Assembly: GCA_024637055.1 (NCBI GenBank)
Contig: JAGXFZ010000124.1
Coordinates: forward strand, 1 to 44,391
Source: Gracilibacter sp.
GTDB taxonomy: Bacteria; Bacillota; Desulfitobacteriia; Desulfitobacteriales; Syntrophobotulaceae
Direction: 5' to 3'
Length of the DNA stretch: 44,391 nucleotides
Translations under genes and position numbers: made by a program
Notes under the pieces: generated by a model
What the model saw: only the letters and a program-made list of their open reading frames with translations
Databases searched by the model: none
What the model was told of the DNA's origin: nothing
Shown here: one piece after another, positions 43,714 through 44,391 of the stretch
How the letters are laid out: every line of letters begins with the position of its first letter
Numbering within the stretch: the first letter of the stretch is position 1

Positions 43714-44372
43714 TTATTCAATAACCTCGGCAACAACACCAGAACCAACTGTACGTCCACCTTCACGGATAGCAAAACGAAGTCCTTCTTCCATGGCGAT
43801 AGGAGTAATTAGTTCACACTCAATAGCAATGTTATCTCCAGGCATAATCATCTCAACACCTTCTGGTAATTGGATGACGCCAGTAACGTCAGTAGTACGG
43901 AAATAGAACTGTGGACGATAATTATTGAAGAACGGAGTATGACGTCCACCCTCTTCTTTGCTCAGAACATAAATCTGACCTTTGAATTTGGTATGAGGTT
44001 TAATACTACCTGGCTTAGCCAGAACCTGGCCACGTTCGATATCCTTACGCTCAACACCACGGAGCAGTGCTCCGATGTTATCGCCAGCTTGGGCGAAATC
44101 CAGAAGTTTACGGAACATCTCTACGCCAGTGCAAACAGTTTTACGTGGTTTTTCACTTAGACCGACAATTTCAAGCTCTTCGCCAACTTTAATCTGACCA
44201 CGTTCCACACGTCCAGTGGCAACAGTACCACGACCGGTAATGGTGAACACGTCCTCAACTGGCATTAGGAAAGGCTTATCAACTGCACGCTCAGGATCTG
44301 GAATGAAGGAGTCAACAGCATCCATAAGCTTCCAGATAGGACCACAAGCTTCACACTCTCTAGTTCCACAAC
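43714..44372 (-). CDS. tuf: Elongation factor Tu, C-terminal part (truncated by contig end/adapter)
   Basis: [55 protein letters not shown]; the reading frame stays open upstream of the track start as [15 protein letters not shown]. Confidence 0.97.
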
Positions 44373-44391
44373 CTGTCTCTTATACACATCT
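44373..44391. other. Nextera/Tn5 mosaic-end adapter sequence (artefact)
   Basis: CTGTCTCTTATACACATCT is the exact reverse complement of the 19-bp Tn5 mosaic end AGATGTGTATAAGAGACAG. Confidence 0.98.

Follow-up and report, generated by a model that had tools for sequence, protein, structure and literature searches.

In Nextera tagmentation libraries, the Tn5 mosaic end (ME) has the sequence CTGTCTCTTATACACATCT (PMC3046479), and both adapter arms joined to the ME have been listed as sequences for trimming (PMC6460022). Adapters that persist at the contig ends of public microbial assemblies, together with their effect on contiguity, have been described in MGnify species assemblies, of which 15,657 were tested (Moeller et al. 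2024, PMC11536531). That screen used only a TruSeq 12-mer, AGATCGGAAGAG.

The window analysed here, 44,391 nucleotides from Gracilibacter sp., is the entire contig C53 of an assembly of 2.58 Mb (129 contigs, 85% complete); base 44391 is its last, so the contig really ends there and was not clipped by the scan. The original prediction held that the last 19 bases match the Tn5 mosaic end exactly, and an exact pattern search of the window bears this out. That is, the contig runs through ...CTAGTTCCACAAC directly into CTGTCTCTTATACACATCT, letter for letter the ME, and stops there. With up to three mismatches allowed, the window contains this one match, where shuffled sequence would give 0.01. The 19 bases are identical to those used in tagmentation (PMC3046479), here as an untrimmed remnant inside an assembly. 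The feature is confirmed as a technical artefact to be trimmed off and is no discovery in biology; it almost certainly stems from untrimmed adapter read-through of a short insert, an explanation against which no evidence was found. The features at this contig end are collected in Table 1.

Table 1. Genuine and adapter-derived features at the right-hand end of the window
Feature	Position	Strand	Evidence
Nextera/Tn5 mosaic-end adapter remnant, non-genomic	44373..44391	+	Exact match; 13 outward contig-end copies in the assembly, six of which go on into adapter arms
Genuine 3' portion of tuf, encoding EF-Tu residues 183-400, with its stop	43714..44372	-	209/218 identity to same-genus EF-Tu; bases 1-7 of C12 equal 44366-44372
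Adapter-derived false stop (TAA) in frame with tuf	44380..44382	-	Tuf-frame translation RCV*ET
Complete-looking but false 203-aa ORF; its ATG (44325) is an internal EF-Tu Met	43714..44325	-	ORF listing compared with 400-aa relatives

Adapter copies across the assembly

The assembly contains 13 exact copies of the 19-mer (10 forward and 3 reverse) against about 1.9e-5 expected by chance, and the reversed control pattern has no match in the whole assembly. When copy positions are compared with contig sizes, all 13 prove to point outward, with 0-17 bases between them and the end of the contig: forward copies sit at right ends and reverse copies at left ends. A 13-base search also found 17 or 18 bases of the reversed ME at the very start of three left ends (C4, C31 and C112), again all outward. 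Altogether, the screen of contig ends that had been proposed with the original prediction returned 16 affected ends, every one outward and the window end among them; at least 16 of the 258 contig ends thus carry 17-19 ME bases. A chance match of 19 bases in genuine tuf has no point in its favour and is vanishingly improbable, given this number of copies, their confinement to contig ends and the true continuation of tuf seen on another contig (C12).

Seven of the 13 full copies, including that of the window, stop exactly at the ME end, and the other six extend 4-17 bases further. All six of these enter a Nextera arm, three of them CCGAGCCCAC... and three GACGCTGCCGACG.... The first of these arms reads CCGAGCCCAC on C21, CCGA on C32 and CCGAGCCC on C113 (that is, CCGAGCCCAC or its first 4-8 bases at all three ends). 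The other arm, present at three ends of the kind GACGCTGCCG(ACGAC), reads GACGCTGCCGACGAC on C41 and GACGCTGCCG on C60; the left end of C58 starts with ATATCGTCGGCAGCGTC, the complement of the GACGCTGCCG arm plus a few extra bases, and then passes into the reversed ME. Since the ME continues into both adapter arms, the source is ordinary Nextera paired-end read-through. The claim that the bases are library-derived is upheld by the 16 outward ends and by the six that run on into the arms.

A Nextera mate-pair circularisation junction begins with the same 19-base ME and continues from it as an inverted ME. Such a junction, in place of ordinary paired-end read-through, would share its first 19 bases with the window end, but an inverted ME was seen at no end and 6 of 6 informative ends enter paired-end adapter arms, which makes this origin very unlikely.

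A genuine Tn5/IS50-type transposon or mobile-element end in tuf, repeated at many sites and breaking contigs, would draw on the origin of the ME from Tn5 ends and on the fact that repeats do break contigs. We nevertheless consider it extremely improbable. The natural outside and inside ends gave rise to the ME as a hyperactive derivative (PMC3046479), and an insertion here would disrupt an essential single-copy gene, yet the gene continues uninterrupted on C12. Moreover, IS50 or other transposon DNA is absent after the ME at the screened contig ends, where contigs either stop or enter adapter arms. The six copies that enter synthetic adapter arms, and not a transposon, exclude a natural Tn5 end. 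Copies placed and continued in this way are nothing that a natural element would produce.

Adapter read-through would have arisen where a short-read fragment carried an insert shorter than the read, so that the read ran into the adapter and was left untrimmed. The assembler may then have carried a contig end of low coverage on into this read-through, a route that we infer. The stop exactly at the ME boundary could reflect a branch in the assembly graph, since every fragment carries the ME and the two arms differ in the bases that come next; without more reads, an assembler would probably not cross such a branch.

The broken tuf gene and its annotation

On the minus strand, EF-Tu runs from codon TGT (44370-44368) to its stop (43716-43714), and the adapter replaces tuf upstream of the TGT. 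Translated, 44370-43714 encodes the C-terminal 218 residues of EF-Tu, and 209 of these are identical to residues 183-400 of EF-Tu from a genome of the same genus (G001). The remainder of the protein, residues 1-183, lies at the extreme left end of C12 in the same assembly; this end is adapter-free, and tuf there adjoins an EF-G-like gene, by position and family the predicted fusA. The first seven bases of C12, CCACAAC, equal the last seven genuine bases of the window, and the two contigs share EF-Tu residue 183 (Cys). On tuf DNA of G001 they are colinear, with a 7-base overlap, in frame and with no indel relative to the 400-aa homologues. The overlap becomes 8 if the first adapter base (C) is counted, a base that matches the genuine one by coincidence. 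Tuf is an uninterrupted 400 codons in all six relatives examined, and no tuf sequence is missing between C12 and C53. The 19-mer does interrupt tuf, as had been claimed. Once the adapter is trimmed, C53 can be placed beside C12 in the order fusA-tuf-rpsJ.

A contig break at a duplicated tuf was also considered and is unsupported: searches of the 85%-complete assembly found one tuf and no second copy.

The adapter has a definite effect on annotation. In the tuf frame it reads AGA TGT GTA TAA GAG ACA G(GT), which translates as RCV*ET, with the asterisk marking the stop. The warning that annotators may mistake the adapter for a genuine gene end proved apt, as this in-frame stop masks the incompleteness of tuf. 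The further claim, that translation into the adapter gives a false N-terminal residue string, stands only in part. Translation into the adapter does mislead; however, the stop lies inside the adapter, so at most Glu-Thr is prefixed and the main false effect is the in-frame stop, not a long N-terminal string. Gene callers would be inclined to return the complete-looking 203-aa ORF from the internal ATG, whose best named relative is LOEZ01000092 (97% identity). The value of the observation is for curation only: the adapter hides an incomplete tuf and gives rise to a false EF-Tu that is too short. In its other two minus-strand frames the ME has no stop (DVYKRQ and MCIRD) and could yield false residues at other contig ends; MCIRDR, a peptide derived from the adapter, had no match in a literature search.

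EF-Tu also shows a cysteine-rich stretch at about residues 181-193 (window 44326-44370 plus C12 bases 1-10), around the linker between domains 1 and 2. All six relatives read have it conserved (ECGCGxR/K-E/D-CxxC), and it is ordinary for the group; a metal site there is only a guess.

Unjoined contig ends

The pairing of C12 and C53 has an independent parallel. Once C41, which bears the GACGCTGCCG arm, is trimmed, its end matches the left end of C46 exactly over 39 bases, a second case of genuine, adapter-free sequence past an adapter end. End overlaps were compared among 136 contig ends (125 of 129 left ends and 11 right ends). Exact overlaps between different ends were found for C40/C90 (89 bases), C41/C46 (39), C25/C28 (34), C86/C115 (19) and C53/C12 (7). 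The assembler left the first four of these pairs unjoined despite their exact end-to-end overlaps, and they look like neighbours parted by thin coverage.

A single Tn5 cut, whose two fragments should have 9 bases in common and might so leave neighbouring contigs with a 9-base overlap, was tried as the cause of the breaks and rejected, as no overlap of 9 occurs among the 136 ends, nearly all of them left ends. On these ends, thin coverage or insufficient overlap therefore explains the breaks better than single cut sites.

Adapter remnants in other genomes and in earlier screens

Within the same order, 4 of 74 genomes contain the 19-mer, the source genome (G000) included. The other three, G022, G041 and G042, carry the same Nextera remnant, for example at L246 (495-513), L247 (368-386) and L248-L252. 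At the seven places read in these three genomes, the 19-mer either ends a contig or borders a stretch of N, with adapter-arm sequence before it; in two cases the N runs that adjoin it are inside scaffolds.

Contaminating adapters in public microbial assemblies are already on record (PMC11536531), and the present case is a correct but ordinary quality-control remark. It shares with that contamination the concentration at contig ends, the orientation (forward on the right, reverse-complemented on the left), the read-specific adapter arms that often come next, and the possibility of merging contigs after trimming. Unlike the TruSeq 12-mer counted there, the sequence here is the Nextera ME, a remnant that a TruSeq 12-mer screen alone would overlook and leave uncounted.
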